Assembly: GCF_003240565.2 (NCBI RefSeq)
Contig: NZ_CP117258.1
Location: 186,001 to 250,000, forward strand
Length of the DNA: 64,000 nt
Reading direction: 5' to 3'
DNA from: Rhizobium tumorigenes
GTDB taxonomy: Bacteria > Pseudomonadota > Alphaproteobacteria > Rhizobiales > Rhizobiaceae
Below are positions 4,095-50,482 of the stretch, piece by piece. The notes under the pieces are model-generated. The model saw nothing but the letters and a program-made list of their open reading frames with translations. It searched no databases and was not told the DNA's origin. Both the position numbers and the translations under genes were made by a program. Position 1 is the stretch's first letter, and each line of letters opens with the position of its first letter.

Positions 4095-5129
4095 ATGAAA
4101 AAGCTGACGCACCGGACGATGGAGGATTTTGCGAAATCCAGCGGGATATCGCGTCCGACCCTGTCCAAGTTCTTCGACGATCCGACCAGCGTGAAGCCAG
4201 CCACCCGTGCTCTGATCGAGGCGGCGTTGCGGTCTTCGGACTACCAGCCCAATCTCTATGCGCGCAACCTCAACCGCAAGCGCACCCGCAACATCGGCAT
4301 TCTCGTGCCGGCCCTTGGCGATCCCTTCTATGCCGAGATGGTCAACCGGCTGGAACTTCGCCTGCGCACCAGCGGCTACTGGCCGATCGTGATTTCATCG
4401 CATGGTTTGCCGGATTTGGAGGCAGAGGCCGTCAAAACGATGCTGTCGCTGAAGGTGGCCGGGGCGCTGGTGGCACCACTCGGATTCAAGTCCGATCCGC
4501 GCGTCTTCGAGAAACTCGGCCAGAACCTGGCGATGGTCTATTTCGACACCTTCATCGAGGGCAGCACGCCGTTTGTCGGCAACAACAACAGCCAGAGCGT
4601 CGCGACGATCGTCGACTATCTCTGCCGGTCCGGTGATGCGCCGGCCTATCTCGACATTCCGCATATCAATCACAATTCGCCGGAAAGGCTGGCAAGTTAC
4701 GTTGCTACCGTTGAGGCGGCCGGGTTCGAGCCGCAGGTGATCAAGACCAGCGCGGACTATACCTGGGATTTCGAGCGGATCGGCTATGAACAGATGGACG
4801 ATATGCTGCGCAGGAAGTCGCTGCCGAGTAAGACCATCCTCTGCGCCAACGACCGCCTGGCCTTTGGCGTGATGGCGGCAGCCTTTGCCAACAACCAGAA
4901 GGTCGGACGTCGAAAGGGCGCCCATCTGAGGATCGCCGCCCATGACGACCATCCCCTCAGTCGCTATGCATCGCCGCCGCTGACGACAATGGCGCAGGAT
5001 TTCGCGGCAATGACGGCCAACAGCGTCGACACATTGCTCGCCCTTCTCGGCGAAGGAGAGACGACGACGGGCGCTATCGTCCATGCCATGCGCTCGGACG
5101 GCACCCTTGTGATGCGCCAGTCCGCCTGA
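4095..5129 (+). CDS. LacI-family transcriptional regulator
   Basis: A 344-residue sugar-responsive repressor or activator. Residues about 8-55 form the LacI headpiece (TMEDFAKSSGISRPTLSKFFDDP, then the hinge helix region ending NLYARNLNRKRT). The rest is a periplasmic-binding-protein-like effector domain (NIGILVPALGDPFYAEMVNRLE ... ILCANDRLAFGVMAAAF ... [18 protein letters not shown]). It is clearly a paralogue of the LacI protein at 51587-52627: the headpieces share TMEDF, G.SRPT.SK.F.DP and NLNR, and both effector domains contain DDHPLSRYA. It is convergent with the esterase gene, 15 bp away. The likely target is the sugar operon starting at 7436 or the 5145-7261 pair, by position only. A ribosome-binding site is weak (AGGAA about 12 bp upstream). 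Confidence 0.93.
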   Translation: MKKLTHRTMEDFAKSSGISRPTLSKFFDDPTSVKPATRALIEAALRSSDYQPNLYARNLNRKRTRNIGILVPALGDPFYAEMVNRLELRLRTSGYWPIVISSHGLPDLEAEAVKTMLSLKVAGALVAPLGFKSDPRVFEKLGQNLAMVYFDTFIEGSTPFVGNNNSQSVATIVDYLCRSGDAPAYLDIPHINHNSPERLASYVATVEAAGFEPQVIKTSADYTWDFERIGYEQMDDMLRRKSLPSKTILCANDRLAFGVMAAAFANNQKVGRRKGAHLRIAAHDDHPLSRYASPPLTTMAQDFAAMTANSVDTLLALLGEGETTTGAIVHAMRSDGTLVMRQSA

Positions 5130-5144: not shown

Positions 5145-6098
5145 CTATGGAGTTGATGTCCCGAAGCTGTTCCACGCAATCACCGCCTCGTCGATGGCCG
5201 CGCGTGCTTCCGGGATGTACTTGCCCATGGAGGCGAAGCCGTGGATCTGCGTCGGCCAATGGCGCAGGACCACGTGCACGCCGTCCTCCTTGAGACGCTC
5301 TGCATAGGCGACGCCTTCGTCGGCGAGGATGTCGTTGCCGGCGATGGCTATAAATGCTGTGGCGGCACCCGATAGGCTCTCTGCCCTAAGCGGCGAGACA
5401 CGCCAATCGCCGATATCGTCCGGCGTGCGAATATAGTGATCGCGAAACCAGCGCATGGTCGAGGCCGACAAGCCGAAGCCCTTTGCATAGCGCCGGTAGC
5501 TGTCTGCGGTCGGGGCAGCGTCCGTGTTCGGATAGAGCAGCAGTTGCGCTATCAATGGCGGCTGGCCGGACTCCCGGGACATCAGTGCCACGACCGCCGC
5601 AAGGTTGCCGCCGGCGCTGTCTCCGGCCACGGCGATTTTTCCTCGGTCGATGCCGAGCGTATCGGCCTCTCCGGTCATAAATGCCAGCGCCGCGAGGCAA
5701 TCCTCAAGCCCGGCGGGGAACTTGTGTTCCGGCGCCAGGCGGTAGTCGGGGCAGACGACCGTGCAGGCCGCGCTATCGGCAAACCACCTGCAGATCTCGT
5801 CGTGGGACTCGAGGCTGCCGATCACCCATCCGCCGCCGTGAAGATACAGCAGCCCGCGCCCGCCGCTCTCCGGTGCACCGAGGCCGCGATATATCCGGAT
5901 GTCGATAGGGCCATTCGGTCCCGTGATCGTGCGGTTTTCAATAGAGGCGACAGGCTGCAAATCGCCTTTTAATGCGGGCGCTCCCGCGTTGTAATCTTTA
6001 CGGGCCTGTTCCGGCGTGCCGTCCTCGAAAGGCCTCGATCTTGCGGCCGTTGCGAGATCGAGCACCCGCTGGGCTCCGGCATCGATGCTTCCGGTCAT
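5145..6098 (-). CDS. HSL-family alpha/beta hydrolase (carboxylesterase)
   Basis: A 317-residue esterase of the hormone-sensitive-lipase (type IV) group, likely cytoplasmic since no signal peptide is seen. The oxyanion-hole motif HGGG is at residues 87-90. The nucleophile is S161 in AGDSAGG, and D256 (GNDILADEG) and H286 (IHGFASM) complete the triad. I place the start at the ATG at 6098 because a strong GGAGAGGGG lies just upstream; an ATG at 6116 would place that site inside the gene. It follows the oxidoreductase gene at 6113-7261 in the same direction with a 14-bp gap, so the two are probably co-transcribed. The family cleaves short acyl esters, so removal of an acyl group from a sugar substrate of this locus is a reasonable inference. 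The substrate is not shown by the sequence. Confidence 0.88.
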   Translation of the reverse strand: MTGSIDAGAQRVLDLATAARSRPFEDGTPEQARKDYNAGAPALKGDLQPVASIENRTITGPNGPIDIRIYRGLGAPESGGRGLLYLHGGGWVIGSLESHDEICRWFADSAACTVVCPDYRLAPEHKFPAGLEDCLAALAFMTGEADTLGIDRGKIAVAGDSAGGNLAAVVALMSRESGQPPLIAQLLLYPNTDAAPTADSYRRYAKGFGLSASTMRWFRDHYIRTPDDIGDWRVSPLRAESLSGAATAFIAIAGNDILADEGVAYAERLKEDGVHVVLRHWPTQIHGFASMGKYIPEARAAIDEAVIAWNSFGTSTP

Positions 6099-6112
6099 CG
6101 TCCCCTCTCCTG

Positions 6113-7261
6113 TCATGCGAGCAAGCTGCGCGCTTCATCCTCGCCGAGCAATGGCGGCTGCTGGAAAGTGCCGTCGATTGTGATCGATTGCTGGCTCTCG
6201 CCGGATGCAAGGATGGCTTCCATAATGTCGAGAACATGCAACGCGAGATCGCCGGACGCTCGCGGCGCCCTGCCTTCCTCGAGCGCCCGGACGAGGTCGG
6301 CGACGCCAAGCATCCGGTAATTTGCCCGGTCCGGTGCGGCATATGGCCAGTTTCTGGCGCCGTAGAGCTCCCCGTCGCTGTCGAAATCCCGCCACTCGGC
6401 GCCGCGCTCGGACAGCGACACAGTACCGCCGAATGTGTCGGGATCCGGCAGGCGCAGCGAACCTTCCGTGCCGTGCAACTCGATCGGATGATTAGAGTGG
6501 CGGAAGACATCCCAGGAGGCACCGAAATTCACCGACGCGCCGGATTTGAATTCCAGAAGCGAGAGGACATTGGTCGGCGTGCCAACGGTGAAGGTGGTGT
6601 TCTGGAACGGGCCTTCAGCGGTGATCAGTCGCTCCTCCTGACCCTTGGTGGCCATCGCCATGACGCGCACCACAGGGCCCAGCAGGTTGACCATCATTGT
6701 CAGGTAATAGGGTCCCATGTCGAAAACGGGGCCGCCGCCTGGCTGGTAGTAGAACTGCGGATTGGGATGCCAGTGCTCCATGCCGCGGCCCATCATGAAG
6801 GCGGTGCCGCTGACGGGACGGCCGATGGCTCCTTCCTCCATCAGGCGCCGCGCCCGCCGGCCGGCCGCACCGAGAAACGTGTCGGGTGCCGATCCGAGCA
6901 GAAGTCCACGTTGCCGTGCCTCTGCCACCAGAGTGCGCCCGTCCGCTGCCGATGTGGTCAGCGGCTTTTCGGTGAAGACGTGCTTGCCGGCCGAAAGCGC
7001 TGACATCGTCACATCGAAATGCACTGCCGGGATCGTGAGATTGAGGACAAGATCGATTTCCGGGTCGGCCAGCAGCTGGTCGACGGTGAGCGCACGGATA
7101 TTATATTCGCCGGCCCGCAAGGCTGCCATATCGGGCGAGATATCCGCGCAGGCTTTCAACTCGACACCGGCAAACAGGGCGGCGTTGCGCAAATAGGTCA
7201 TCGAAATATTGCCGCAGCCTACTACGCCAAGGCCTGTTTTCGTCTTTTTACCGTCCGTCAT
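6113..7261 (-). CDS. Gfo/Idh/MocA-family sugar oxidoreductase
   Basis: A 382-residue NAD(P)-dependent dehydrogenase of the glucose-fructose oxidoreductase/inositol dehydrogenase family. The Rossmann dinucleotide-binding motif GCGNIS is at about residues 15-20. The conserved EKP motif (TEKPLTTS) that lines the active site is at 98-100. The C-terminal alpha/beta domain (about 130-350) has the family's open sheet. ATG at 7261 is chosen because GGAGGAG lies 8 bp upstream; an upstream in-frame ATG at 7288 has no such site. It is divergent from the sugar ABC operon at 7436, with a LacI-like palindrome in between, and sits upstream of the esterase gene. Such enzymes oxidise a ring hydroxyl or C1 of a sugar or cyclitol. 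The substrate is unknown. Confidence 0.9.
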   Translation of the reverse strand: MTDGKKTKTGLGVVGCGNISMTYLRNAALFAGVELKACADISPDMAALRAGEYNIRALTVDQLLADPEIDLVLNLTIPAVHFDVTMSALSAGKHVFTEKPLTTSAADGRTLVAEARQRGLLLGSAPDTFLGAAGRRARRLMEEGAIGRPVSGTAFMMGRGMEHWHPNPQFYYQPGGGPVFDMGPYYLTMMVNLLGPVVRVMAMATKGQEERLITAEGPFQNTTFTVGTPTNVLSLLEFKSGASVNFGASWDVFRHSNHPIELHGTEGSLRLPDPDTFGGTVSLSERGAEWRDFDSDGELYGARNWPYAAPDRANYRMLGVADLVRALEEGRAPRASGDLALHVLDIMEAILASGESQQSITIDGTFQQPPLLGEDEARSLLA

Positions 7262-7347
7262 AAAACTAGCTCCTCCCACGATTTCCACCGGCTGCGAGCG
7301 GCTTTCATGCGCAACCCAGCAGCTGGCAAACGGATTTAAAGCATTTT

Positions 7348-7368
7348 ATTTGTTGACGCGCGACAAAT
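7348..7368. promoter_or_regulatory. candidate LacI-type operator
   Basis: A 21-bp partial palindrome with perfect 6-bp arms, ATTTGT at 7348-7353 and ACAAAT at 7363-7368, around the core TGACGCGCG. The size and the CG-rich centre fit LacI-family operators. It lies in the divergent gap between the oxidoreductase (start 7261) and the binding-protein gene (start 7436), where one site could control both directions. The TTGACGCG core also occurs at 48014-48021, upstream of the SmoE-like gene. No binding data; the assignment is inference. Confidence 0.5.
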
Positions 7369-7435
7369 TTTTCTCGATCATACGGCAATACTGGCGCGGA
7401 GTTTTGGAGGTCGCCGGTCTTCCTGGGAGGGAAAC

Positions 7436-8782
7436 ATGTCTGATTTCAAAAAGGAGCCGTTGGGCTCCGCTTCGACTTTCAATTCGGTGATGATCGATCG
7501 TCGCCGGCTTCTGCTGGGTGCGGCGGGTGCTGCCGTCGGCGCTGCTGCTCTGGGTGTAACGTCTAGCTTTGGCATGCGCTCGGCGCGGGCGGCCGACAGG
7601 ACAGAGATTAGCTTTGCGTCCGCCAGCTTCTTCGGCAAGGAAGGCCTCGGCGATCTCGTCAAGGCGTTCAACGAGTCGCAGGACCGCATCATGGTGAAGT
7701 TCATAGAACTGCCGCCACCGAGTTCGTCGACCGAAGTCTATCAGGGGCTGATCCAGCAACTGGCCCGCCGCAACGGGACGCCCGACGTTTTCACGCAGGA
7801 CGTCGTCTGGATCGCAGGTTTTGCCGCCGCAGGCTGGGCGCTGCCCCTCGACGAGTATTTCCCCAAGGAAAAGCGCACCGACTATTTCCCCGGCACGGTG
7901 GCTGCCTGCACTTATAATGAGAAGCTGACGGCGCTGCCATGGTTCGTCGATTCTGGCATGTTCTATTATCGCAAGGACCTCGTCGAAAAGCACGGCGGCA
8001 AGGTTCCGGAAACCTGGGACGAGATGGCAACGATGGCGGCCGCCGCCCAAAAGGCCGGCGATGCCAAGTTCGGCTACCTCTGGCAGGGCAAGCAGGCCGA
8101 AGTGCTGATCTGCGATGCCGTCGAGATCATCACCTCGAATGGTGGCTCCATACTGGCGCCGGACGGGAAATCCTCCGTGGTCGGAGACAAGGCGGCGATC
8201 GAGGCCATCCAGTTTCTCCACGACACCATCAACAAGACCAAGATCAGCCCGCAAAATGTGCTTTCCTGGGATGAAGAGCCGTCGCGCCAGCCCTTCACGT
8301 CCGGCGAAGCGATGTTCATGCGCAACTGGTCCTATGTCTATCCGATTGCCCAGGATCCGAAGGCCTCGCAGGTTGTCGACAAGGTGGCGGTTGCGCCCCT
8401 GCCGCATTTTGCCGGCGGCAAGAGCGCGGCCTGCCTCGGCGGCTACCAGCTGGGTGTCAACGCCAACTCCAAGAAGCGCGAAGCCGCGATCGAGTTCCTG
8501 ACCTGGATGTCGTCGCCGGCAACCCAGACACGGCTGGCACTGAATTTCGGTCTGGCGCCTTCGCGTCCGGCGATCTTCGAGGATGCCAAGCTCAAGGCCG
8601 AGCAGCCCTTCATGGCGAGCCTGCAAAGCGTCTTCACCGGCGCCACACCACGGCCGATCACGCCACAATATGCCAAGGTCACGCTGGCGCTGCAGTCGAG
8701 CATCTCCAAGGCCCTGGTCAGCGGCGACGTGAAGACCGAGCTCGAAGCTGCCGCTGCGCAAATCAACAAGATCGTCGCCTGA
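7436..8782 (+). CDS. sugar ABC transporter substrate-binding protein (CUT1)
   Basis: A 448-residue periplasmic binding protein that captures the sugar for the permeases encoded just downstream. The N-terminus has a twin-arginine-like export signal: R22-R24 (DRRRLLLG), then a hydrophobic Ala/Gly stretch ending near SARAADR. The mature part is an extracellular solute-binding family 1 protein (ISFASASFFGKEGLGDLVKAFN ... TPDVFTQDVVWIAGFAAAGWALPLDEYF ... NWSYVYPIAQD). GGGAGG 5 bp upstream supports the ATG. It heads an apparent 11-gene operon reaching 17409. Candidate ligands are di- or oligosaccharides or glycosides, typical for this family, but the sequence does not name one. Confidence 0.93.
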   Translation: MSDFKKEPLGSASTFNSVMIDRRRLLLGAAGAAVGAAALGVTSSFGMRSARAADRTEISFASASFFGKEGLGDLVKAFNESQDRIMVKFIELPPPSSSTEVYQGLIQQLARRNGTPDVFTQDVVWIAGFAAAGWALPLDEYFPKEKRTDYFPGTVAACTYNEKLTALPWFVDSGMFYYRKDLVEKHGGKVPETWDEMATMAAAAQKAGDAKFGYLWQGKQAEVLICDAVEIITSNGGSILAPDGKSSVVGDKAAIEAIQFLHDTINKTKISPQNVLSWDEEPSRQPFTSGEAMFMRNWSYVYPIAQDPKASQVVDKVAVAPLPHFAGGKSAACLGGYQLGVNANSKKREAAIEFLTWMSSPATQTRLALNFGLAPSRPAIFEDAKLKAEQPFMASLQSVFTGATPRPITPQYAKVTLALQSSISKALVSGDVKTELEAAAAQINKIVA

Positions 8783-8783
8783 C

Positions 8784-9716
8784 ATGGCGGTTTCCACCAC
8801 AGTCCCGGCAACGGGGCAGTCTCGCAAAGCAAGGAGGGCGCTGCCACGCGCCCTCTGGCCATGGCTCCTGCTGTTGCCGGCTTTCCTGTCGCTTGCATCT
8901 GTGTCCTTCTATCCGATCGTCAACGGCCTCTATCTGTCGCTGACGAACCGCTCGCTGATTACCCAGGACAATGATTTCGTCGGCTTTGCCAACTACGTGC
9001 AACTTTACAACGATCCGGCGTTCTGGAATGCCTGGCGCCACACGATGTGGTTTACCGTCGCATCCACCGTGCTGGAGACGCTGATCGGCCTCGGCATGGC
9101 CCTCATTCTCTGTGAGACCTTCGGGGGACGGGGGATTATCCGGGCGGCCATGCTCGTGCCTTGGGCAATGCCGACCGTGGTCACCTCGAAGATGTTCGGA
9201 TGGCTGTTCGACGGCCAGCACGGCATCATTAATTTCATTCTCCTGCATCTCGGGCTGATCGACCAGAACGTCAACTGGTACGGATCGCCGAACACCGCCC
9301 TCCTCACCATCATCCTTGCCGACGTCTGGAAGACCACGCCGTTCATGGCGCTGCTGCTTCTGACCGGATTGCAGACCGTTCCGAAGTCGCTGATCGAAGC
9401 CGCACGGATGGACGGCGCCAAGGCCTGGGTGATCTTCTGGAACATCCGCTTGCCGCTGCTGCTGCCGACGCTGCTGATCGCCGGACTGTTCCGTGCGTTG
9501 GACGCCTTCCGCATCTTCGACCTCGTCTACGTGCTGACGGGCGGCGGCCCGGCCGATTCCACCGAAACGCTGTCGACGCTGTCCTACAAGATCCTCTTTT
9601 CAACCCTGCAGTTCGGCTACGGCTCGGCAGTCTCCACGGCGATGTTCCTGACTGAAGGCGTGATCGCGGTGGTGTTCTGCCTGTTCCTCGTCCGGCAGAT
9701 AAGGAAGACGACATGA
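8784..9716 (+). CDS. sugar ABC transporter permease (MalF type)
   Basis: A 310-residue inner-membrane permease with six predicted spans, first at WPWLLLLPAFLSLASVSFYPIV. The EAA loop that docks on the ATPase reads EAARMDGAKAWVIFWNIRLP. The motif FDLVYVLTGGGPADSTETL is standard for MalF-type CUT1 permeases. It starts one base after the stop of the binding-protein gene and overlaps the next permease by 4 bp (ATGA), so translation is coupled. It would pair with the second permease and the ATPase at 15851-16936. Confidence 0.94.
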   Translation: MAVSTTVPATGQSRKARRALPRALWPWLLLLPAFLSLASVSFYPIVNGLYLSLTNRSLITQDNDFVGFANYVQLYNDPAFWNAWRHTMWFTVASTVLETLIGLGMALILCETFGGRGIIRAAMLVPWAMPTVVTSKMFGWLFDGQHGIINFILLHLGLIDQNVNWYGSPNTALLTIILADVWKTTPFMALLLLTGLQTVPKSLIEAARMDGAKAWVIFWNIRLPLLLPTLLIAGLFRALDAFRIFDLVYVLTGGGPADSTETLSTLSYKILFSTLQFGYGSAVSTAMFLTEGVIAVVFCLFLVRQIRKTT

Positions 9717-10549
9717 CCCAGGGCCGCTCCGTTCTCCAGAGTACGGTGATCTATGCCGGTGCGCTGTTTATCCTGGTATGGTCAGCCGGGCCTTTCCTCT
9801 GGCAGTTCTCGACCTCGCTGCAGCTCGACAAGGCGCTGACCGAGGGAACGCCATCGCTCATTCCGCATCCCTTCACGCTGGAGCACTACTATAATGCCTT
9901 CGTCGAAAAGGGCCTGCATCACTATGTTCTGAACTCGCTGATCGTCTCGCTGTCGACCACGGCGCTCTGCCTGATCGTCGGTTCGCTGTCAGCCTTTGCG
10001 CTGTCGCGGCTCGATGTGAAGGGCCGGTTCGGCATCCTGATGGTGATCCTGTCGGTGTCGATGTTCCCGCAGATCGCGCTCGTCGGCCCGCTTTATCTGC
10101 TGGCCTCGGATCTCGGTCTCCTCGACACCCATACCGCTCTGATCATCACCTATCTTGCGCTGGGTCTGCCGTTGGTGACCTGGGTGCTGTTTGGCTATTT
10201 CGAAACCCTGCCGCGCGAAATCGACGAGGCGGCGCGGATGGATGGCGTCGGCGTCGTCGGCCTACTCTGGCACATCATCCTGCCGATGTCGCTGCCGAGC
10301 CTTGTGACGACAGGGCTGCTGGCCTTCATCACCGCCTGGAACGAGTTCCTGTTCGCGCTTGCCTTCACCTCCGATCCCGACAGCCAGACCATTCCCGTCG
10401 GCATCGCCAACTTCACGAACCAGTACTACGTGCCCTGGGGAGATATTGCGGCTGCGTCCGCTGTCGTCACCGTGCCGCTCATCATACTCGTGCTGGTCTT
10501 CCAGCGACACATCATCGAAGGCCTGACGCAAGGCGGAATCAAGGAATAG
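9713..10549 (+). CDS. sugar ABC transporter permease (MalG type)
   Basis: A 278-residue inner-membrane permease, second half of the CUT1 channel. Six spans are predicted, and the EAA loop reads DEAARMDGVGVVGLLWHIILP. The C-terminal pattern (FLFALAFTSDPDSQTIPVGIANFTNQY ... FQRHIIEGLTQGGIK) is characteristic of MalG-type permeases. The start overlaps the upstream permease by 4 bp. The next gene, a TIM-barrel enzyme, begins 3 bp after the stop. Confidence 0.94.
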   Translation: MTQGRSVLQSTVIYAGALFILVWSAGPFLWQFSTSLQLDKALTEGTPSLIPHPFTLEHYYNAFVEKGLHHYVLNSLIVSLSTTALCLIVGSLSAFALSRLDVKGRFGILMVILSVSMFPQIALVGPLYLLASDLGLLDTHTALIITYLALGLPLVTWVLFGYFETLPREIDEAARMDGVGVVGLLWHIILPMSLPSLVTTGLLAFITAWNEFLFALAFTSDPDSQTIPVGIANFTNQYYVPWGDIAAASAVVTVPLIILVLVFQRHIIEGLTQGGIKE

Positions 10550-10552
10550 ACA

Positions 10553-11371
10553 ATGACCACGGATTTCAAGGTCGGCTGCCAGACGTTTACATGGGAGATG
10601 CTCGGCGCCGGCTGGACCGGGACCGCGGATGACCTCATGGCAGCAATTGCCGCTGGTGGTTATTCCGGCATCGAAATCACCGATACGATGATCGGCCCCT
10701 ATGCTGACAAACCAGCCGATTTCAAAAAGGCGCTGGCGAGCCACGGGTTGCAACTGGTGTCCTTCGCCTTCGGCTCGCAGACCGGGTTCACGGTTGCCGA
10801 CCACATTGACGCCGATCTGGTCGTCGCGCAGCGCTGGGTCGATTTCGCATCCCATTTCGAGGGCGCACTGGTGTCGATCGGCTCTGCCACGGTCGTATCG
10901 GACGGCCCCCGCGCGGAGAAATTCAAGGTCGCCGCCGAGTTCTACAATCGGGCTGCGGCCCTCGGCCAGGCATCGGGCGTCACGGTGGCGGTGCATCCGA
11001 GTTCGCACCATAACACCCTGCTGTTCGACCGGGCCGATTATGACACGATCTTCGGGCTGCTCGATCCCGCGCTGGTCGGCTGGATCCCGGATACCGGGCA
11101 CATCCTGCGCGGCCACGACGACATCCTCGACACGCTTCAAACCTACCAGGCCCGCATCCGCTACCTCCACCTCAAGGATGTCGATGCCAACGACCAGTGG
11201 GCGATGCTCGGCGAGGGCGTGCTCGACACGCCAGCCGTGCTCGACATCGTCGGCAAGGCGCCGAACTTCAACGGATGGCTGGTGCTCGAGGAAGAATCCG
11301 AGACGGCAGGGCGCGATCCCGCTGCTGCCGTGAAACTCAATCGCCAGACAATGCGCGGCTATGGTGCATAA
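10553..11371 (+). CDS. TIM-barrel sugar isomerase/dehydratase-like protein (IolE-like)
   Basis: A 272-residue xylose-isomerase-like TIM barrel (AP endonuclease 2 superfamily). Metal and substrate residues can be placed at E41 (GIEIT), H148 (VAVHPSSHHNT), D180 and H183 (IPDTGHI), H206 (LHLKDVD) and E246 (VLEEES). The His at 148 and the DTGH motif resemble inosose dehydratase (IolE) more than plain isomerases. The family includes isomerases, epimerases, dehydratases and, with Gfo/Idh/MocA partners, beta-eliminating deglycosidases that act on 3-keto sugars. It lies between the transporter and an oxidoreductase of that very family, with a second TIM barrel after it. A role on an oxidised sugar is inferred; the exact reaction is unknown. 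Confidence 0.85.
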   Translation: MTTDFKVGCQTFTWEMLGAGWTGTADDLMAAIAAGGYSGIEITDTMIGPYADKPADFKKALASHGLQLVSFAFGSQTGFTVADHIDADLVVAQRWVDFASHFEGALVSIGSATVVSDGPRAEKFKVAAEFYNRAAALGQASGVTVAVHPSSHHNTLLFDRADYDTIFGLLDPALVGWIPDTGHILRGHDDILDTLQTYQARIRYLHLKDVDANDQWAMLGEGVLDTPAVLDIVGKAPNFNGWLVLEEESETAGRDPAAAVKLNRQTMRGYGA

Positions 11372-11383
11372 GGAAGAAATGCG

Positions 11384-12460
11384 ATGATCGAGAAAGAACA
11401 GCGTCGATTGCGGGTGGGCGTTCTCGGCTGCGGGCCGATTGCGCAATTTGCCCATCTCGAATCCTGTGTGAAGGCGCGCAATGCCGATCTCTACGCAATC
11501 TGCGATGCAGCACCGGATCTCCTGGCGCGCATGGGTGCGACCTACGAGCCGCAAAAGATGTACGGCGACTACGACGCCATGCTGGCCGATCCAGAGCTCG
11601 AAGCCGTGATCGTCGCCACCTCCGATGCCTACCATGTGCCGATGTCGATCAAGGCGCTCCATGCCGGCAAGCATGTTCTTTGCGAGAAGCCGATCGGCGT
11701 TTCCGTCGAGGAAGGCCAACAGCTGGCCGATGCGGTGGAGCGCTCGGGCAAGATCCTGCAGGTCGGCCACATGAAGCGCTTCGATCCGGCTCTGGAAGCG
11801 GCGCGCGACTTCGTGCGCGACGATATCGGCCAGATCTTTGCGCTCAAGGCCTGGTACTGCGATTCCACGCACCGCTACACCAACACTGACGCCGTCCAGC
11901 CGCTGCCGGTAACCAGCAAGCTGGCACGCAAGCCTGGCGGCAATCCCAAGGCCGATCTCCGGCAGTATTTCATGCTGGCGCACGGCTCGCATCTGGTCGA
12001 TACGGCGCGCTTTTTCTGCGGCGAGCTGGTCGCGGTCCGGGCCCGCCTGCTGGAGCGCGCCGGTGCTTATTGCTGGTTCGTCGAAACCGAATTCGCCAAT
12101 GGCGCGCTCGGCCACCTCGATCTGACCGTTGCCGTCAGGATGGACTGGCACGAGGGCTTCCAGCTCTATGGCGAGCACGGGTCCGTTCTCGCCAAGACCT
12201 TCAATCCCTGGTATTTCCGCGCCAGCGAGGTCGATATCTTCCACGAGAAGGACGCGACCACCCGCAGGCCTCTGGGCGCCGATGGGCATTTCTTCCGCCG
12301 CCAGCTGGAGGGTCTCGCCGATACGGTCCTGACGGGCGCTCCGATGCGCGGCGCCAATGTCGATGACGGCATTGCCTCGATCCGCGCCATGGTCGCCATC
12401 GCCCGTTCGGTTGAAACCAGCGAACGCGTCGAAATCGCATCCGTGACGGGATCGGTCTGA
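11384..12460 (+). CDS. Gfo/Idh/MocA-family sugar oxidoreductase
   Basis: A 358-residue NAD(P)-dependent dehydrogenase. The Rossmann motif GCGPIA is at residues 15-20 and the active-site EKP at 101-103 (CEKPIGVS). KRFDP (MKRFDPALEAA) and a His-rich segment (AHGSHLVDTARFF) sit where the catalytic Lys/His region is found in this family. It starts 12 bp after the first TIM-barrel gene, and its last base is shared with the start of the second (12460). It is the second oxidoreductase of this family in the locus. It is only distantly similar to the one at 6113-7261, so the two probably act on different steps or substrates. Confidence 0.9.
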   Translation: MIEKEQRRLRVGVLGCGPIAQFAHLESCVKARNADLYAICDAAPDLLARMGATYEPQKMYGDYDAMLADPELEAVIVATSDAYHVPMSIKALHAGKHVLCEKPIGVSVEEGQQLADAVERSGKILQVGHMKRFDPALEAARDFVRDDIGQIFALKAWYCDSTHRYTNTDAVQPLPVTSKLARKPGGNPKADLRQYFMLAHGSHLVDTARFFCGELVAVRARLLERAGAYCWFVETEFANGALGHLDLTVAVRMDWHEGFQLYGEHGSVLAKTFNPWYFRASEVDIFHEKDATTRRPLGADGHFFRRQLEGLADTVLTGAPMRGANVDDGIASIRAMVAIARSVETSERVEIASVTGSV

Positions 12461-13281
12461 TGCAGGTCGGTATCTTCGCCAAGACCTTTCCGGGGACAGA
12501 TCCGCTTGCCGTCCTGTCGGCGGTAGCCAGCAACGGCTATTCCGCGACGCAGTTCAATCTTGCCTGCTGCGGCCTGCCATCGATGCCGGACGCCGTGCCG
12601 GAGAGCACTGTCACCGCCATCCGCACGGCTGCCGAGACGAGTGGCGTCTCGCTTGTGGCGCTGTCCGGGACCTATAACATGGCCCATCCGGACCCTGCCG
12701 TCAGACAGGCCGGGCTGCGGCAGCTCGAGGTCGTGATCAGAGCTGCGGCGGCGCTTGCCATTCCGTTGGTCACGCTCTGCACAGGCAGCCGCAACCCTGT
12801 CGATCAGTGGGCGCACCACCCGGACAACGCCGACCCTTCTGCCTGGGGCGACATGGCTCTGGAGATGGCCAAGGCGTTGGCGCTGGCCGAAGGCTACGGC
12901 GTCATGCTCGGCATCGAGCCCGAGCAGGCGAACATCGTGACATCGGCCGAAGACGCCATGCGCCTGATCGCCGAGATGGGATCGCGCAAGCTGCGCATTG
13001 TCCTCGACCCCGCCAATCTCTTCGAGGCGGCCACGCCTGACGAGGCGCGATCCATCGTGGCGCGAGCGGTCGATACGGCTGCCGGACACGTCGCCATGGC
13101 GCACGCCAAGGACCGCCATGCGGATGGCAGCTTTGCCACTGCCGGCAAGGGCGTCGTGGATTTCGGCGATTTCCTCGTCCGCCTTAAAGCCTCCGGCTTC
13201 GATGGCCCTGTCGTTACCCATGGGCTCTCGGCCGATGAGGCCTCCGGAGTTGCAGCCTTCCTGAAGGGAATGGTCGGATGA
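12460..13281 (+). CDS. TIM-barrel sugar phosphate isomerase/epimerase family protein
   Basis: A 273-residue xylose-isomerase-like TIM barrel. The expected metal ligands are E153 (LGIEPEQ), D183/N186 (VLDPANLF) and H215/D218 (AHAKDR), with a later GKGVVDF motif. Unlike the barrel at 10553-11371 it carries the canonical Glu at the first ligand position, so the two are not simple duplicates. It overlaps the oxidoreductase gene by one base and the hydrolase gene by 4 bp. The family's chemistry is sugar isomerisation, epimerisation or elimination. The substrate is unassigned. Confidence 0.87.
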   Translation: MQVGIFAKTFPGTDPLAVLSAVASNGYSATQFNLACCGLPSMPDAVPESTVTAIRTAAETSGVSLVALSGTYNMAHPDPAVRQAGLRQLEVVIRAAAALAIPLVTLCTGSRNPVDQWAHHPDNADPSAWGDMALEMAKALALAEGYGVMLGIEPEQANIVTSAEDAMRLIAEMGSRKLRIVLDPANLFEAATPDEARSIVARAVDTAAGHVAMAHAKDRHADGSFATAGKGVVDFGDFLVRLKASGFDGPVVTHGLSADEASGVAAFLKGMVG

Positions 13282-14108
13282 GCGAGCAAGTCTATCTTAC
13301 CCGCGACGATGCCGAGCTTGCTGTCTTCGACTTTGGCAGCGGCCTGCCGGTGCTCTTCCAGCACGGGCTGGGAGGCAGTGACGCGCAGGTGGCGCAGGCC
13401 TTTCCCGATGGCGATGGCTTCAGGCGAATGACTGTGGAATGTCGCGGCCATGGCAGCTCGTCGCTCGGTAGCCGGCGGCCATTTTCCATCGCCATGTTTG
13501 CCGAGGATGTTCTCGCGGCTGCCGATCGGTGCGGCATCGAGCGCCTCGCCGTCGGCGGTATTTCCATGGGCGCCGCCATCGCCCTCCATCTGGCCCATTT
13601 CCACAAGGACCGCATCGCAGCTCTGGTGTTGGTGCGGCCGGCCTGGACCTTCGATGCCGCGCCCGAAAACATGGCGCCGATCCGCACTGTCGGCAAACTG
13701 ATCCTTGCTCACCCGATCGAGCAAGCCCGCGACCTTTTTGTCGCCTCCGAGACGGGGGCTGAACTTGAACGGGACGCGCCGGACAATTTTGCATCCTTGC
13801 TCGGCTATTTCGATCGACCTGACGCTGCTGCCTTCGCAAAGGTACTCGTCGATATCGCGAGCGACGGACCGGACGTGACCAAGGCCTCGGCCGCTGCGCT
13901 CGCCGTTCCGACGCTCGTCATAGGCAACCGGCAAGATGCCATCCATCCGCTGTCATCAGCCGAAACGCTTGCGGCCACCATTCCGGGCGCTGCCTTCGTC
14001 GAGGTGGCGGCCAAGGCTGCCGACAAGGCCCGTCATTTCGCAGAGACCCAAAGCGCCATCTCGCAATTCCTCTCCTCTGAAACCCTCCGGAGCCGTTTCG
14101 CATCATGA
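13278..14108 (+). CDS. alpha/beta hydrolase (lactonase/esterase-like)
   Basis: A 276-residue alpha/beta-fold hydrolase. The oxyanion strand motif QHGLGG is at about residues 29-33. The nucleophile is S96 in GGISMGAA, and an Asp in VIGNRQDAIHP and a His in KARHFAE complete the triad. The sequence resembles 3-oxoadipate enol-lactonase-like hydrolases. Within this operon, opening of a sugar lactone or cleavage of an ester made by the preceding enzymes is a plausible role, but it is inferred. It overlaps both neighbours by 4 bp (ATGA type), so it is translated as part of the operon. Confidence 0.85.
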   Translation: MSEQVYLTRDDAELAVFDFGSGLPVLFQHGLGGSDAQVAQAFPDGDGFRRMTVECRGHGSSSLGSRRPFSIAMFAEDVLAAADRCGIERLAVGGISMGAAIALHLAHFHKDRIAALVLVRPAWTFDAAPENMAPIRTVGKLILAHPIEQARDLFVASETGAELERDAPDNFASLLGYFDRPDAAAFAKVLVDIASDGPDVTKASAAALAVPTLVIGNRQDAIHPLSSAETLAATIPGAAFVEVAAKAADKARHFAETQSAISQFLSSETLRSRFAS

Positions 14109-14830
14109 TCACGAAGACCCTCTCTGGCCCTGCGGCAATCGCAGCCCTCCCCCGCGACCGATTGCTCGGCGAATTCTCCCTCTGGTCGGCCGACCTCGCA
14201 AACATGGAATCCGATCTCAAACGGATCGAGGATCATGTCGACCTGCATCATATCGACGTTGCGGATGCGCGCTTCACTCCCGGTTTCCTGTTCTTTCCCG
14301 ATTTCGTGGCCCGCATTGCCAAGTCCACCGCAAAGCCCATCCACGTTCACCTGATGGTCGAAGCCGAGATCGTCGAGGAGCAGACCCGTCAGTTCATCGA
14401 GGCCGGTGCCGATCTCATCAGCGTCCATGCGGAAAACGGCGAGGCCGGTCTTCGGGCGTTGGCGATCGCCAAGGAAATGGGCGCAGCCGGCGGTGTTGTC
14501 CTGCGGCTGGAGACGCCGGTGGAAGCGGTCAAGCCGTTCCTGCCGCATATTGCCTTCGTGACGTTACTCGGAACGTCGATCGGCGTGAAAGGCCAGAGCC
14601 TGTCGGAAAAGGCGTGTGACCGGCTGATCGAGGCCCGCTCGCTCATCCGCGCTGCCGGCCGTGAAGGCGAAATCGTCCTTGCGGCGGATGGCGGCATTCG
14701 TGAACAGACCGTGCCGCTTCTGCGCGCTGATGGCGCCGAGACAGTCGTCCTGGGGTCGCTGGCCTTTGGAGACAAGGATCTGGCCGCCCGGATGAAATGG
14801 CTGCATGCCCTGGAAAGCCACGCCCAGTGA
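14105..14830 (+). CDS. ribulose-phosphate 3-epimerase family protein
   Basis: A 241-residue TIM barrel of the ribulose-phosphate epimerase family. The metal and acid/base residues are kept: H49 and D51 (LHHIDVADARF), H82 (VHLMVE) and D195 (AADGGI). Two signatures differ from true Rpe. The usual MDG after the first Asp reads ADA, and the phosphate-loop GFGGQ is replaced by GTSIGVKGQ. That suggests a different sugar, perhaps another ketose 6-phosphate as for allulose-6-phosphate epimerase. It overlaps the hydrolase by 4 bp and the ROK kinase by 4 bp (GTGA). Confidence 0.85.
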   Translation: MITKTLSGPAAIAALPRDRLLGEFSLWSADLANMESDLKRIEDHVDLHHIDVADARFTPGFLFFPDFVARIAKSTAKPIHVHLMVEAEIVEEQTRQFIEAGADLISVHAENGEAGLRALAIAKEMGAAGGVVLRLETPVEAVKPFLPHIAFVTLLGTSIGVKGQSLSEKACDRLIEARSLIRAAGREGEIVLAADGGIREQTVPLLRADGAETVVLGSLAFGDKDLAARMKWLHALESHAQ

Positions 14831-15864
14831 CAGACGCCGCCCTCGCATTCGACCTCGGTGGAACGGAGCTGCGGGCCGCGATGGTGAACCGCGCGGGCGA
14901 CCTGCTGTCATTCCTGTCGGTGCCAACGCTGGCAGCGGACGGGCCGCGTGCCGTCATCGGACAGATGCAGGCGCTAGCCGCCGAGATAAGGGGGCAAACG
15001 CCAAACATCGAACCGGTCGGCATCGGCGTCGGTGCTCCCGGGCCGCTCGATCCCGTTTCAGGCATCGTCATTGCGCCGCCGACCCTCACCGGTTGGCATG
15101 ACGTGCCGCTCGCAGACATCCTGCTGGAGCACTTCAAGCTGCCGGTCTGGCTCGAGAACGACGCCAACGCTGCCGCTCTCGGCGAGTGGCGATACGGCGC
15201 CGGCAGAGGTGCGGCCTCGATGGTCTTTGCCACCGTTTCGACCGGTATCGGTGGCGGCGTCATCGCCGATGGCCGCATCCTGCACGGGCGACGGGGGCTT
15301 GCGGCTGAAATCGGCCATATGACGATCACCAACGAGGGAGAGCGCTGCTTTTGCGGCGCGATCGGCTGCTTCGAAGCCTTGGCCTCGGGCACCGCGCTCG
15401 GCCGAAGGGCAACCACCGGTACGCGGCCTTTCGACGGTTCGATGATGCGGGCGCTGTCGGCCGATGGCGATGTCACCGGCCGGCATGTCGTCGATGCGGC
15501 ACGCCGGGGTGATCGGCAGGCGCTGGAGATGCTGGCGGTCGAAGCTCGCTGGCTCGGCATCGGTCTCACCAATCTGCTGCACCTCTATTCGCCGGACATC
15601 ATCGTCGTCGGCGGTGGCATCTCCCACGGCTTCGATATGCTGCATGGTGAGATCAAGGCCACGGTCGCCGAGCGTGCCATGTCCGCCTATCGCGACGTTC
15701 CCATCGTTGCAGCACAGCTCGGGCGTCACGCCGGGCTCATCGGGGCGGCGAGCCTGGTCCTGCACAGCGACGACAGGGATACCGCCGCGCTTGCGGCCCA
15801 CCCGAACAATTCAGGCGGGGACGATCCCGCCAGCACAATGGAGGCCCGTCATGGCCAATCTTAA
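14827..15864 (+). CDS. ROK-family sugar kinase
   Basis: A 345-residue ROK protein without a DNA-binding domain, so a kinase rather than a repressor. The ATP-binding motif DLGGT is at residues 9-13 and the catalytic Asp is in LENDANAA (about D112). The ROK zinc site is H164 with the CxCGxxGC cysteines C174, C176 and C181 ([11 protein letters not shown]). The start is the GTG at 14827, which overlaps the previous stop in a GTGA; an ATG at 14797 would add ten residues unlike the family. It probably phosphorylates the sugar that the Rpe-like enzyme then epimerises, or the reverse. It overlaps the ATPase gene by 14 bp. Confidence 0.9.
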
Positions 15865-16936
15865 ACTGCGCGACGCCCGCAAGGCCTATGGTGCGGTCGA
15901 AGTCATCAAGGGCATCGACCTCGACGTCGTGGACCGCGAATTCGTGGTCTTCGTCGGGCCGTCGGGCTGTGGCAAGTCCACCCTGCTGCGGATGATCGCC
16001 GGCCTCGAGAATATCACCGGCGGCGATCTGATGATCGATGGCGTCCGGGCAAATGACATCGATCCGTCCGAGCGCGGGCTGGCCATGGTGTTCCAGTCCT
16101 ATGCGCTCTACCCGCACATGACCGTGGCGGAGAACATGGGCTTTGCCCTACGGATCGCCGGCATCCCCGTCCCCGAGCGCGACGCCAAGGTCAATGCGGC
16201 AGCCAAGGTCCTGGAGCTGTCGCATCTGCTCGACCGGCGGCCCAAGGATCTGTCCGGCGGCCAGCGCCAGCGCGTCGCCATCGGCCGAGCCATCGTCCGC
16301 AATCCGAAGATCTTCCTGTTCGACGAGCCGCTGTCCAATCTCGACGCTGCCCTGCGCGTCAACATGCGTCTCGAACTCATGCGCCTGCACCAGACGCTGG
16401 AAGCGACGATGATCTACGTCACCCATGACCAGATCGAAGCGATGACCATGGCAGACAAGATCGTCGTGCTGAACGCAGGCCGCATCGAGCAGGTGGGATC
16501 GCCGCTCGATCTCTACAATCACCCGGCGAATATCTTCGTTGCCGGCTTCATCGGCTCGCCGAAGATGAACCTGCTGCGGGTGCGCGTCGATGCCATTGGT
16601 CCGGCCGGCGTGACGGTGGTTGCTGCGGAAGGTGTTGCGATACCCGTCGCCGTCGCCCCGGGCGAGGTCAAGGTCGGCGATGAAATCACGCTCGGGATCC
16701 GGCCGGAGCATATCCGCATCGGCGAGGGCGGTCAGTTCCACGGCAAGGCTGTCCTTGCCGAACGGCTCGGTGGATTGACGGTCTTTCACGTCGATATTAC
16801 CCCTGAGGTATCGCTTGTGGTACAGACCGATGGCGCTGATAAAACTAGCCTCCATGTCCCGATCACGCTCGGGATAGAGCCGCACAACTGCCACCTGTTC
16901 GACACGGCCGGGAAGGCTCTCGCCAAGTTGAACTGA
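15851..16936 (+). CDS. sugar ABC transporter ATP-binding protein (UgpC/MsmK type)
   Basis: A 361-residue cytoplasmic ATPase that powers the CUT1 transporter. Walker [10 protein letters not shown] is at 36-44, the signature LSGGQ at 134-138 and Walker B IFLFDEP at 154-160. A C-terminal TOBE/regulatory domain follows ([16 protein letters not shown] ... [11 protein letters not shown]). The ATG at 15851 lies inside the end of the ROK gene. Being encoded at the far end of the operon from the permeases is common in rhizobia. It completes the transporter of 7436-10549. Confidence 0.94.
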
Positions 16937-16989
16937 CAAGGACCGTCCACGATGCGATCGGTCATCCCTTTGAAATCGAGGTAAAAGAA

Positions 16990-17409
16990 ATGACATTCAT
17001 ACGCGAAACCCTGACGCTCAGCCATGCCGGCGCGTTGCAGGCCGTATCGGCCGCCGTCGACAAGGCCGTCGCGATGGGCGTGCCCCAGTGCGTCCACATC
17101 GTCGATGCCAGCGGCGAGACGATCGCCAGCCTGCGCATGGACGGCGCCAAATACCTCAGCATGCACACGGCCCGCGCCAAGGCCCGCACCGCAGCGTCGA
17201 TCAACGCGCCGACGGGCGGCATGGCCTTTGAATTCGGGGCCGCCGCCGGCATTGCCTCCCAGGGCGGCGTCACCCACCTGCCCGGTGGCCTGCCGATCCG
17301 TTTCGCCGGCAAGCTCGCTGGCGCCATCGGCATCGGCTCCGGCAGCGGCGACCAGGATTTCGAAGTCGCCCGCGCCGCGCTTGCCGCCATTGGCGCAGAT
17401 CCGGTCTGA
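16990..17409 (+). CDS. GlcG/HbpS-family protein
   Basis: A 139-residue protein of the GlcG/HbpS (DUF336) family. The family pattern is clear: AVDKAVAMGVPQCVHIVDASGE near the start and KARTAASINAPTG in the middle. It ends with GGLPIRFAGKLAGAIGIGSGSGDQDFEVARAAL. No signal peptide is seen. Some members bind haem or corrinoids, and glcG lies in glycolate operons, but the function is not settled. It follows the ATPase gene by 53 bp and ends the sugar operon, followed by a strong hairpin at 17420-17447. It also lies 446 bp from the glycolate oxidase genes, which run in the opposite direction. Confidence 0.85.
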   Translation: MTFIRETLTLSHAGALQAVSAAVDKAVAMGVPQCVHIVDASGETIASLRMDGAKYLSMHTARAKARTAASINAPTGGMAFEFGAAAGIASQGGVTHLPGGLPIRFAGKLAGAIGIGSGSGDQDFEVARAALAAIGADPV

Positions 17410-17854: not shown

Positions 17855-19198
17855 CTATTGAGCCGACGGAGCTTTAGCGTTATCTCCCAGTCCAGCCAAA
17901 CCCTGCAGCTTTTGCGGGACGTCGCCGCCATAGGCCCAGTCCAGGAGTTCTATCGTGTGCAGGATCGGGGTTGCGGTGCCGGTGGCGATCTGGGTGATGC
18001 AGCCGATGTTGCCGGTGGCGATGATATCGGCGCGGGTGGCTTCGAGATTGCGCACCTTGCGTTCTTTGAGCTGGCCGGAAATGACGGGTTGCATGATATT
18101 GTAGGTGCCGGCCGAGCCGCAGCAGAGATGACCTTCGGCGGGATCCTTCACGGTAAAGCCAGCAGCTTTCAGCAGCAGCTTCGGCGCGGTGGTGATCTTC
18201 TGGCCATGCTGCATCGAGCAGGCGGAATGATAGGCGACGGCGATGCCCTTTGGCTGCTGTCGCGGCAGGTCCAGCCCTGACAGATATTCAGTGATGTCCT
18301 TGGCCAGCGCCGAGACCCGGGCGGCCTTTTCTGCATAGGCTGGATCGAGCCGCAGCATATGGCCGTAGTCCTTGATGGTCGTGCCGCAGCCGGAAGTGGT
18401 GATGATGATGGCATCAAGGCCACCCCGGTCAATTTCGCCGTTCCAGACGTCGATATTGGCGCGTGCCTGCACCAGCGCCTGATGCTCGCGGCCCATGTGG
18501 TGGACAAGCGAGCCGCAGCATACCTCGCCGGCCGGCACCACGACCTCGACGCCGAGCCGTGTCAGCAGCCGGATCGTCGCCGCGTTGATCGCCGGATCGA
18601 GCACCGGTTGCGCACATCCCGTCAGGATCGCCACGCGACCGCGCTTTTCGGCCTTTGGGGCATGGGTGCCGGGCTTTGCGAATGGCGAGGACGGCGGGAT
18701 GGCGCGGGGTGCGAGGTCGAGCATCGCTGCAAAAGGCAGCAGCGCCGGTACGCTCCGAAGCAGGGAGGCAAGCGGCCGGCCCAGCCTGGCGAGACCGAGC
18801 GCCAGCCGGAAGCGGCGGGGGTAAGGCAGGACCGATGCCAGCAGGTTGCGGATCATCCGGTCCATCAGCGGCCGCTTGTAGGTTTCCTCGATATGGGCGC
18901 GGGCGTGGTCAATGAGATGGGTGTAATCGACGCCGGACGGACAGGTGGTGACGCAAGCGAGGCACGACAGGCAGCGGTCGATGTGGGTCACCACTTCGGC
19001 GTCGGCAGCCCGGCCGTTTTCCAGCATGTCCTTGATCAGGTAGATCCTGCCGCGCGGGCTATCGAGCTCGTTGCCGAGTGTCACATAGGTCGGACAGGTG
19101 GCGGTGCAGAAGCCGCAATGGACGCATTTTCGCAGGATCTGCTCCGAAAAGGCAACGCTCGGATCGGTCAGCTGTTCGGCGGTGAAATTGGTCTGCAT
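17855..19198 (-). CDS. glcF: glycolate oxidase iron-sulfur subunit
   Basis: A 447-residue subunit of the membrane-associated glycolate oxidase, which oxidises glycolate to glyoxylate and passes electrons to the respiratory chain. Two ferredoxin-type 4Fe-4S sites are intact: C25, C28, C31, C35 (CVHCGFCTATCP) and C76, C79, C82, C86 (CLSCLACVTTCP). Two CCG cysteine-rich domains follow (EVCCGSLVHHMG and HLCCGSAGTYN). Length is normal for GlcF. It is last in the order glcD-glcE-glcF, 31 bp downstream of glcE. Confidence 0.96.
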   Translation of the reverse strand: MQTNFTAEQLTDPSVAFSEQILRKCVHCGFCTATCPTYVTLGNELDSPRGRIYLIKDMLENGRAADAEVVTHIDRCLSCLACVTTCPSGVDYTHLIDHARAHIEETYKRPLMDRMIRNLLASVLPYPRRFRLALGLARLGRPLASLLRSVPALLPFAAMLDLAPRAIPPSSPFAKPGTHAPKAEKRGRVAILTGCAQPVLDPAINAATIRLLTRLGVEVVVPAGEVCCGSLVHHMGREHQALVQARANIDVWNGEIDRGGLDAIIITTSGCGTTIKDYGHMLRLDPAYAEKAARVSALAKDITEYLSGLDLPRQQPKGIAVAYHSACSMQHGQKITTAPKLLLKAAGFTVKDPAEGHLCCGSAGTYNIMQPVISGQLKERKVRNLEATRADIIATGNIGCITQIATGTATPILHTIELLDWAYGGDVPQKLQGLAGLGDNAKAPSAQ

Positions 19199-19229
19199 CG
19201 GATCTTTCGCTGATGGGGAACGTCACCGC

Positions 19230-21862: not shown

Positions 21863-21933
21863 GGCGCCCTCCTCAGCGACACCCAGAAGCGTCATGTCTA
21901 GCATATCCGGCATTCTTGCCAAGCGGTGAATAG

Positions 21934-47926: not shown

Positions 47927-48238
47927 CTTACCTCCCTCGCCCCGCCAAGGACGGATAATGCAATGCGGCGGTCCCTCTTGGCTAAAGAAAGGGAAATCGC
48001 GAGTCAACAGAATTTGACGCGAGTAAATTAGCGCATGCCTTGCGGATTGCTTATTTCCTGTGCAGGTAAGCGTAATCAAGCAAATAAAACAGCCATTATG
48101 CCGTATGATTTTCGAGATATGACCGGAAATTCGGCAGCGTTCATCTTCGGTCGGTTGACAGCAGGACGCTTCGTTGCAATAAAACTTTACGCATGTAATT
48201 TTATGCGTAGGTTTTCTTTCGGGAGGAGAAACGAAGTC
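47927..48238. other. divergent regulatory region of the hexitol cluster
   Basis: A 312-bp gap between the leftward kinase and rightward binding-protein genes. It contains the TTGACGCG core at 48014-48021 in an AT-rich setting. It also has a 7-bp-arm inverted repeat (TACGCAT at 48188-48194, ATGCGTA at 48203-48209) right before the binding-protein start. The region is AT-richer than its surroundings, as expected for promoters. No gene seen. Confidence 0.6.
48188..48209. promoter_or_regulatory. inverted repeat before the SmoE-like gene, candidate operator
   Basis: TACGCAT and its exact reverse complement ATGCGTA are separated by 8 bp, ending 30 bp before the ATG at 48239. Position suits a repressor site for the LacI protein at 51587-52627, but that link is inferred. 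Confidence 0.5.
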
Positions 48239-49552: not shown

Positions 49553-49560
49553 TCGATACC

Positions 49561-49583
49561 GCTCGCGGCTTGCCGCCGCGAGC
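49561..49583 (+). terminator. hairpin after the SmoE-like gene
   Basis: GCTCGCGGC at 49561-49569 and its exact reverse complement at 49575-49583 form a 9-bp GC-rich stem with a 5-nt loop, 8 bp after the stop codon. No U-tract follows. Such hairpins often protect abundant binding-protein mRNA from 3-prime decay. Confidence 0.65.
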
Positions 49584-49669
49584 ACCCTCCCGGGCGTTGG
49601 AAGTTTAACCTTCCCAAGGTCAGGGCTTTCCGGCAGACATTCGTCAGTATCTAGAATTTGGAGCGTGTT

Positions 49670-50440: not shown

Positions 50441-50482
50441 CCTTACGGTCGGCGATCGCCTGAAGGCGTGCGGGAGGAAGTG

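Follow-up and report, generated by a model that had tools for sequence, protein, structure and literature searches.

A cluster of eleven co-directional genes in Rhizobium tumorigenes very probably forms an operon for carbohydrate catabolism. It occupies positions 7436-17409 of a 64,000-nucleotide stretch of contig NZ_CP117258.1 (hereafter the window), in a genome of 5,977,727 bases on six contigs. Together with a divergent half, the operon appears to combine two separable modules in one LacI-controlled unit. Module 1 consists of a CUT1-type ABC importer, a Gfo/Idh/MocA oxidoreductase on the divergent arm (GfoC), and a lyase-type PF01261 barrel (TIM1), whereas module 2 comprises a second oxidoreductase (Gfo1), an epimerase/isomerase-fold barrel (TIM2), an alpha/beta hydrolase, an Rpe-like epimerase, and a ROK kinase. 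The initial annotation of this DNA had proposed import, oxidation, TIM-barrel chemistry on a keto sugar, and entry through a kinase and an epimerase, with which the families, synteny, and regulation described below agree.

Conservation and separability of the two modules

The gene order was compared in 80 named loci; one scan with TIM2 gave 178 confirmed matches, of which these 80 score best. Since they were chosen by TIM2 score and come mostly from two genera, Rhizobium and Mesorhizobium, they represent a selected, related sample, and the locus counts are minima because contig ends truncate some loci. Gfo1, TIM2, hydrolase, and Rpe are contiguous in all 80 loci, and ROK comes next in 77. TIM1 lies directly upstream of this core in 75 loci, and the divergent half is represented by GfoC in 74, LacI in 46, and the esterase in 45. 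The association of these genes is not due to chance. Other parts are less constant: the window type of importer is found in 33 of the 80, a DeoC/LacD-type aldolase with a PfkB kinase in 39 (mostly with a different CUT1 set), and tagatose kinase and GatZ-like genes in 15.

Among the seven enzymes compared, conservation is highest for Gfo1, with a mean identity to the window of 90%, followed by GfoC (85%), Rpe (81%), TIM2 (74%), TIM1 (73%), ROK (69%), and hydrolase (61%). Only near-full-length calls were aligned (GfoC 49, TIM1 73, hydrolase 74, ROK 76, Rpe 79, and Gfo1 and TIM2 80 each), and two ROK paralogues below 45% were dropped. The closest named TIM2, from Rhizobium sp. L51/94, is 97% identical, and Gfo1 reaches 98.9% on plasmid records of Rhizobium tumorigenes and R. 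rhododendri. The own genome included, TIM2 relatives were found in 29 of 297 genomes of the order (E 1e-50) and in six of 398 in a phylum-wide search (E 1e-60), and Gfo1 relatives in 21 of 199 genomes of the family (E 1e-130). A class-wide Gfo1 search at E 1e-100 returned only the own genome among 289, and a Gfo1 relative (E 1e-60) is carried by 118 plasmid records. A eukaryote collection also holds a protein 77% identical to TIM1 (P0149), which is probably bacterial contamination.

The independence of the modules became apparent in 47 further loci beyond the named set, including plasmid records, in which the core was recounted by tblastn. These counts leave out L131, L138, and L146, and L176 is probably the same record as L094. 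Gfo1 is present in 44 of the 47, with L128, L130, and L135 lacking it at the cut-off. Among those 44, TIM2 accompanies Gfo1 in every case, the hydrolase in 42, Rpe in 35, and a window-type ROK in 29, but TIM1 and GfoC in only six. Module 2 is served there by ribose-type, CUT1, or TRAP importers; judged by importer flags from a gene-calling pass that overlooked some genes (the Rpe of L142 among them) and that also supplied the kinase flags, TIM1 occurs in none of 17 loci flagged with a ribose-type importer only and in two of nine flagged with CUT1. In L124, L130, and L137, a TRAP-type importer and a sulfatase adjoin Gfo1 and/or TIM2 relatives, so that the substrate of these loci could be acidic or sulfated.

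Module 1 can likewise stand alone. A TIM1 profile was searched in the 38 genomes whose locus had been retrieved, a subset of those with a match (G280, G186, G104, G115, and G040 are among those outside it). At E 1e-40, TIM1 was found in 14 of the 38, at the Gfo1 locus in six and elsewhere in eight; the 32 genomes without TIM1 beside Gfo1 thus comprise these eight and 24 with no match at this threshold. All eight stand-alone TIM1 genes directly follow relatives (67-76% identity) of the substrate-binding protein (SBP) and two permeases of the window, with GfoC divergent in six and the ATPase directly after TIM1 in four. The order in the window is SBP-permease A-permease B-TIM1-[Gfo1-TIM2-hydrolase-Rpe-ROK]-ATPase. 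Therefore, the operon can be described as a module 1 into which module 2 is set, with TIM1 on one side and the ATPase on the other, whether through an insertion here or a loss in the stand-alone loci. This arrangement groups GfoC and TIM1 with the importer and places Gfo1 and TIM2 on the side of the kinase, and the stand-alone module 1 would assign the first oxidation to GfoC rather than Gfo1. Near stand-alone module 1, loci L196, L197, L200, and L201 have genes for a LacD-like aldolase (28-29%), SDRs, and, judged by sequence, DeoR-type regulators.

These distributions bear on the substrate. The initial annotation had described a glycoside pathway; carbohydrate breakdown stands, but a glycoside as the sole substrate is too strong a claim because the core without TIM1 and GfoC occurs beside ribose-type importers and because 24 of 38 genomes have no TIM1 match. 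The same 24 genomes weigh against a full four-step deglycosylation (oxidation, elimination, hydration, and reduction) with TIM2 as the hydratase, as no TIM1-made glycal would be available in them, although another eliminase is possible. The fold of TIM2 resembles AtHYD and many epimerases alike, and TIM2 also occurs in genomes without TIM1. Since this scheme also gives the Rpe-like enzyme and the hydrolase no role, we consider it unlikely.

Organization of the operon

The features of the operon and its divergent half are collected in Table 1. The gene set of the initial annotation, which starts at 7436, has all eleven ORFs (open reading frames) on the plus strand and in the families named, but the divergent GfoC and esterase and the LacI gene had been overlooked. 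The spacing along the eleven genes is 1, -4, 3, 12, -1, -4, -4, -34, -14, and 53 bases, so that six of the ten joints overlap, as had been claimed for most of them. A GTG start of ROK at 14827 turns the overlap of 34 bases into one of four, and the protein then has the length annotated in R. tumorigenes 932. A scan of the window gave no tRNA and no Rfam match at the gathering cut-off.

Table 1. Coordinates of the operon, its divergent half, and the candidate operator within the window
Feature	Position	Strand	Basis or remark
LacI-type regulator	4095..5129	+	LacI and Peripla_BP domains
Abhydrolase_3-type esterase, divergent arm	5145..6116	-	Pfam
GfoC, Gfo/Idh/MocA oxidoreductase, divergent arm, module 1	6113..7261	-	Pfam GFO_IDH_MocA
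Candidate LacI operator TTGACGCGCGACAA, GfoC/SBP divergent promoter	7353..7366	.	strict pattern across orthologous loci
CUT1 substrate-binding protein (SBP), module 1	7436..8782	+	SBP_bac_1
ABC permease A, module 1	8784..9716	+	BPD_transp_1
ABC permease B, module 1	9713..10549	+	BPD_transp_1
TIM1, lyase-type PF01261 barrel (IolE / 3-keto-glucoside 1,2-lyase-like), module 1	10553..11371	+	profile matches, conserved residues
Gfo1, Gfo/Idh/MocA oxidoreductase, module 2	11384..12460	+	Pfam GFO_IDH_MocA, conserved residues
TIM2, epimerase/isomerase-fold PF01261 barrel, module 2	12460..13281	+	domain, fold, E153 D183 H215 H254
Alpha/beta hydrolase, presumed S96-D220-H253 triad, module 2	13278..14108	+	domain; PcaDC/PcaD best matches
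Rpe-like sugar-phosphate 3-epimerase, module 2	14105..14830	+	Ribul_P_3_epim domain
ROK sugar kinase, module 2	14827..15864	+	domain; alternative ATG start 14797
ABC importer ATPase, UgpC/MalK type, module 1	15851..16936	+	UgpC subfamily cut-off passed
GlcG/HbpS-like protein, accessory	16990..17409	+	HbpS-like domain

The families and synteny seen do not support the ATPase or GlcG as pathway enzymes, and GlcG, which had been counted as a member proper, was ruled out of the core as an accessory present in three of the 80 named loci. It recurs (81%) at a paralogous locus of the own genome, and a 'heme-binding protein' follows ROK on an Agrobacterium plasmid. The paralogous locus, L111, is a second module 2 at 5741-11056 of the same contig (Gfo1 66%, TIM2 59%, hydrolase 44%) and is adjoined by an allose-kinase-like ROK, an SDR, and ribose-type importer genes. 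Glycolate-oxidase-type glcD, glcE, and glcF lie convergent to the operon at 17855-21922 of the window; in L184, GlcD/GlcE-like genes also come after ROK, with one small ORF between.

Importer and regulation

A transporter and an ATPase had been noted separately; both are present but are parts of one CUT1 importer, which has an SBP_bac_1 protein, two BPD_transp_1 permeases, and a MalK/UgpC-type ATPase scoring 467 bits against a UgpC subfamily cut-off of 432. The closest solved sequences to SBP are maltose-binding MalE3 and a trehalose/maltose-binding protein, with sulfoquinovosyl-glycerol-binding SmoF lower in the list.

Across 74 orthologous loci, the divergent promoter of GfoC carries the strict pattern TTGACGCGCGWMAA in 64; a matrix derived from these 64 sites finds a site of at least 10 bits in all 74 promoters, although this conservation is partly owed to shared descent. 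The gene opposite GfoC at these promoters is SBP in 33, a DeoR-type regulator in 23, an aldolase in 10, and TIM1 in eight. The pattern TTKWCGCGCGWMAA occurs at four places in the own genome, of which only 7353-7366 lies outside predicted ORFs; the other three were accordingly rejected as further operon targets. The LacI-type regulator could be predicted from these patterns to bind at 7353-7366. Where an allose-type binding-protein gene lies immediately downstream of the operon, an operator-like site of 23.6-31.8 bits precedes it (13 of 13 loci); the tagatose kinase/LacI intergenic sites are less strong (4.7-26.6 bits, with 10 of the 14 exceeding 10). At the eight stand-alone module 1 promoters, no site reaches 13 bits.

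A second sugar cluster lies at 45654-52627 of the window, with genes for a GatZ/KbaZ-like protein, a tagatose-kinase-like protein (about 46961-47875, minus strand), a lone binding protein, an SDR, a second LacI, and, judged by sequence, a zinc-type alcohol dehydrogenase, and with operator-like sites at 48011 and 48183. This tagatose-type cluster was rejected as a regulon partner because it carries its own LacI.

Oxidoreductases and the TIM1 barrel

Characterised homologues with a known simple route, which the initial annotation had named as a counterargument, were not recovered: among the NCBIfam matches listed for ten operon proteins and GfoC, none is at the cut-off, which was passed only by the importer ATPase. 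GfoC and Gfo1 are both sugar-type GFO_IDH_MocA proteins by Pfam. The best NCBIfam match of GfoC is levoglucosan dehydrogenase (LgdA), but neither enzyme reaches the NF052479 cut-off of 650, with scores of 68.5 (GfoC) and 70.6 bits (Gfo1). Gfo1 keeps K102 of an EKP motif, H203, and D206. Its top solved match is DgpA, which oxidises puerarin at C3, and it is 24% identical over 364 positions (E 3e-19) to YcjS, annotated as a D-glucoside 3-dehydrogenase. On balance, C3 is slightly favoured as the position of oxidation.

TIM1 is probably a lyase, as judged from profile matches and residues. Its profile matches IolE best among solved sequences (9.5e-15) and then three others at 2e-13 to 5e-8, two of which (8tct and 8tcd) carry the title 3-keto-beta-glucopyranoside-1,2-lyase; in the fold comparison, the 3-keto-glucoside 1,2-lyases are tied with many other structures. 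The residues H148, H152, D180, H206, and E246-E248 are each kept in at least 98% of 73 named loci. TIM1 His148 is paralleled by His132 of AtOGE, a position held by Glu in epimerases (PMC10628242).

That IolE is the top solved match, and that NCBIfam ranks IolG first for Gfo1 (123.6 of 355 bits) and IolE first for TIM1 (71.6 of 290), could suggest a cyclitol pathway with Gfo1 as an inositol-type dehydrogenase and TIM1 as an inosose dehydratase. However, family members are all that is held in common with the myo-inositol (iol) pathway: both scores are far under the curated cut-offs, the operon proteins scanned gave no match to IolB, IolC, IolD, or IolJ, TIM1 is separable from Gfo1, and a sugar kinase with a sugar-phosphate epimerase does not fit. 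A cyclitol pathway is thus very improbable.

TIM2, hydrolase, epimerase, and kinases

Residues E153, D183, H215, and H254 of TIM2 are invariant among 23 aligned sequences. D-tagatose/D-allulose 3-epimerases are defined by a Glu-Asp-His-Glu site, and the H254 column holds Glu in an allulose-epimerase-like protein and in YcjR (22% identity to TIM2, E 3e-5). A plain D-tagatose/D-allulose 3-epimerase was therefore rejected for TIM2, in which H254 replaces the last Glu.

The Rpe-like protein scores 132.2 bits against a Ribul_P_3_epim cut-off of 21.1 and keeps the His/Asp/His/Asp site of the Rpe superfamily (H49, D51, H82, and D195). Rpe itself is the best model, yet with 141.3 bits against the TIGR01163 cut-off of 212.6 it was rejected, as were AlsE (101.4 of 271 bits) and a housekeeping rpe, for which the own genome has another rpe-like gene (28% identical). 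PMC5118466 labels pRL120033 'putative D-allulose-6-phosphate 3-epimerase' and scores it non-essential; from the gene order, pRL120033 would be the Rpe-like gene RL_RS33100.

ROK scores 113.4 of 253 bits against AlsK, below the cut-off, and other kinases take its place in some loci. A PfkB gene lies between importer and Gfo1 in L191 (best model tagatose kinase, 266 of 420 bits), another overlaps Gfo1 by four bases in L119 (best match fructokinase, 193 of 450 bits), and six loci, all without Rpe, have a different ROK, which in all four scanned matches allose kinase best (82-148 of 253 bits). L121 has an extra barrel whose best match is D-psicose 3-epimerase (182 of 300 bits). Each is below its cut-off, but together the replacement kinases and this barrel point to a ketohexose or a rare aldohexose. 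The binding protein of L115 matches PDB 5dkv at 5.9e-165, the ligand of which is reportedly D-tagatose. A kinase followed by a phosphate-sugar epimerase is likely.

The best matches of the hydrolase, under the cut-off, are the enol-lactonases PcaDC/PcaD; from its position in the fold and the motif, S96-D220-H253 is presumably the triad, and any role in the pathway is a guess. These PcaD-type matches would fit an aldonate route, in which the hydrolase would open an aldonolactone and Gfo1 would form a 3-keto-aldonate; decarboxylation by TIM2 would then yield a pentulose, which ROK would phosphorylate to a pentulose-5-phosphate for epimerisation by the Rpe-like enzyme. Rpe as the best model of the epimerase and the TRAP importer of one lineage also favour it, and PF01261 decarboxylases of 3-keto acids are reportedly known from work on D-apionate. 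However, the remaining importers are sugar types by family, the replacement kinases best match hexose kinases, and nothing of module 1 is accounted for, which leaves the aldonate route rather improbable.

Proposed pathway

Gene content, synteny, the independence of the modules, the operator, conserved residues, and fold classes are observed; all of the reactions, oxidation at C3, the sequence in which the two oxidoreductases act, and the substrate are inferred. A glycoside or disaccharide would be imported by module 1 (GfoC, CUT1 importer, and TIM1), a ring hydroxyl, most likely that at C3, would be oxidised by GfoC, and the C1 substituent could then be eliminated by TIM1. Module 2 may then act on the keto sugar so formed or, in relatives, on a monosaccharide imported as such; Gfo1 would be the redox enzyme for this sugar, and TIM2 would epimerise or isomerise the keto intermediate. 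An ester or lactone might be opened by the hydrolase, which is the least certain step. The freed hexose, probably a ketohexose, would be phosphorylated by the kinase, and the Rpe-like enzyme would invert C3 of the ketose phosphate to give fructose-6- or tagatose-6-phosphate. The model as a whole, with oxidation and cleavage of a glycoside by module 1 and, in module 2, rearrangement of the keto sugar and its entry into metabolism as a ketose phosphate, is plausible at somewhat less than even odds. More tentatively still, the Gfo1-TIM2-hydrolase-Rpe-kinase module might be an undescribed route with C3 oxidation of a hexose, a Glu-Asp-His-His barrel, and a new ketohexose-6-phosphate 3-epimerase, which rhizobia nested in an importer and 3-keto-glycoside lyase module for use on glycosides.

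Comparison with known systems

Operons that pair two oxidoreductases with two PF01261 barrels (sugar phosphate isomerase/epimerase type) have already been published for Agrobacterium glycosides (GlycDH-OGE) and levoglucosan (lgdA-B1-B2-C) in PMC10628242, PMC7676230, and PMC10066097. The levoglucosan locus also has a sugar ABC importer and a LacI regulator, its loci keep lgdA-lgdB1 while later genes vary, comparably to the variation here, and the first oxidoreductase of Agrobacterium is a flavoenzyme, unlike in the present operon. What differs from both is the conserved second module with hydrolase, Rpe-like epimerase, and ROK, which is also found without the lyase module.

E. coli ycjQRS (D-guloside to D-glucoside) similarly places a Gfo/Idh/MocA 3-dehydrogenase beside a PF01261 3-keto epimerase, with a CUT1-type importer and a LacI-type repressor. 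It differs in low identity (24% for YcjS-Gfo1 and 22% for YcjR-TIM2), in the last Glu of YcjR where TIM2 has His, and in having phosphorylases rather than a kinase and epimerase. The E. coli als (D-allose) operon shares a ROK kinase and an Rpe-family epimerase (24% and 32% identity), to which the oxidoreductase/barrel core is additional here. The Caulobacter lac cluster for periplasmic 3-ketolactose (PMC9007349) is set apart by periplasmic oxidation and a DUF1080 hydrolase.

ThuB of the rhizobial thu operon makes 3-keto derivatives. On plasmid pRL12 of R. johnstonii 3841 (L141), where RL_RS33055-33105 are the orthologous genes, the next genes along encode a further sugar importer, ThuA, and a Gfo/Idh/MocA protein, whereas ThuA is not part of the operon described here.

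The literature searched gave no paper assigning a function to the gene set, which is no proof of novelty as most subscription papers were not covered; the portions available of PMC3333776, PMC10318746, and PMC10064268 contain nothing on the operon. The gene set resembles a new combination of two enzyme modules whose kinds are already known. Plant-associated Rhizobium and Mesorhizobium commonly carry the cluster, often on plasmids. Solving its function would name the sugar, would assign roles to subfamilies labelled only 'sugar phosphate isomerase', 'Gfo/Idh/MocA', 'ribulose-phosphate 3-epimerase', and 'ROK', and would probably correct a wrong rpe label.

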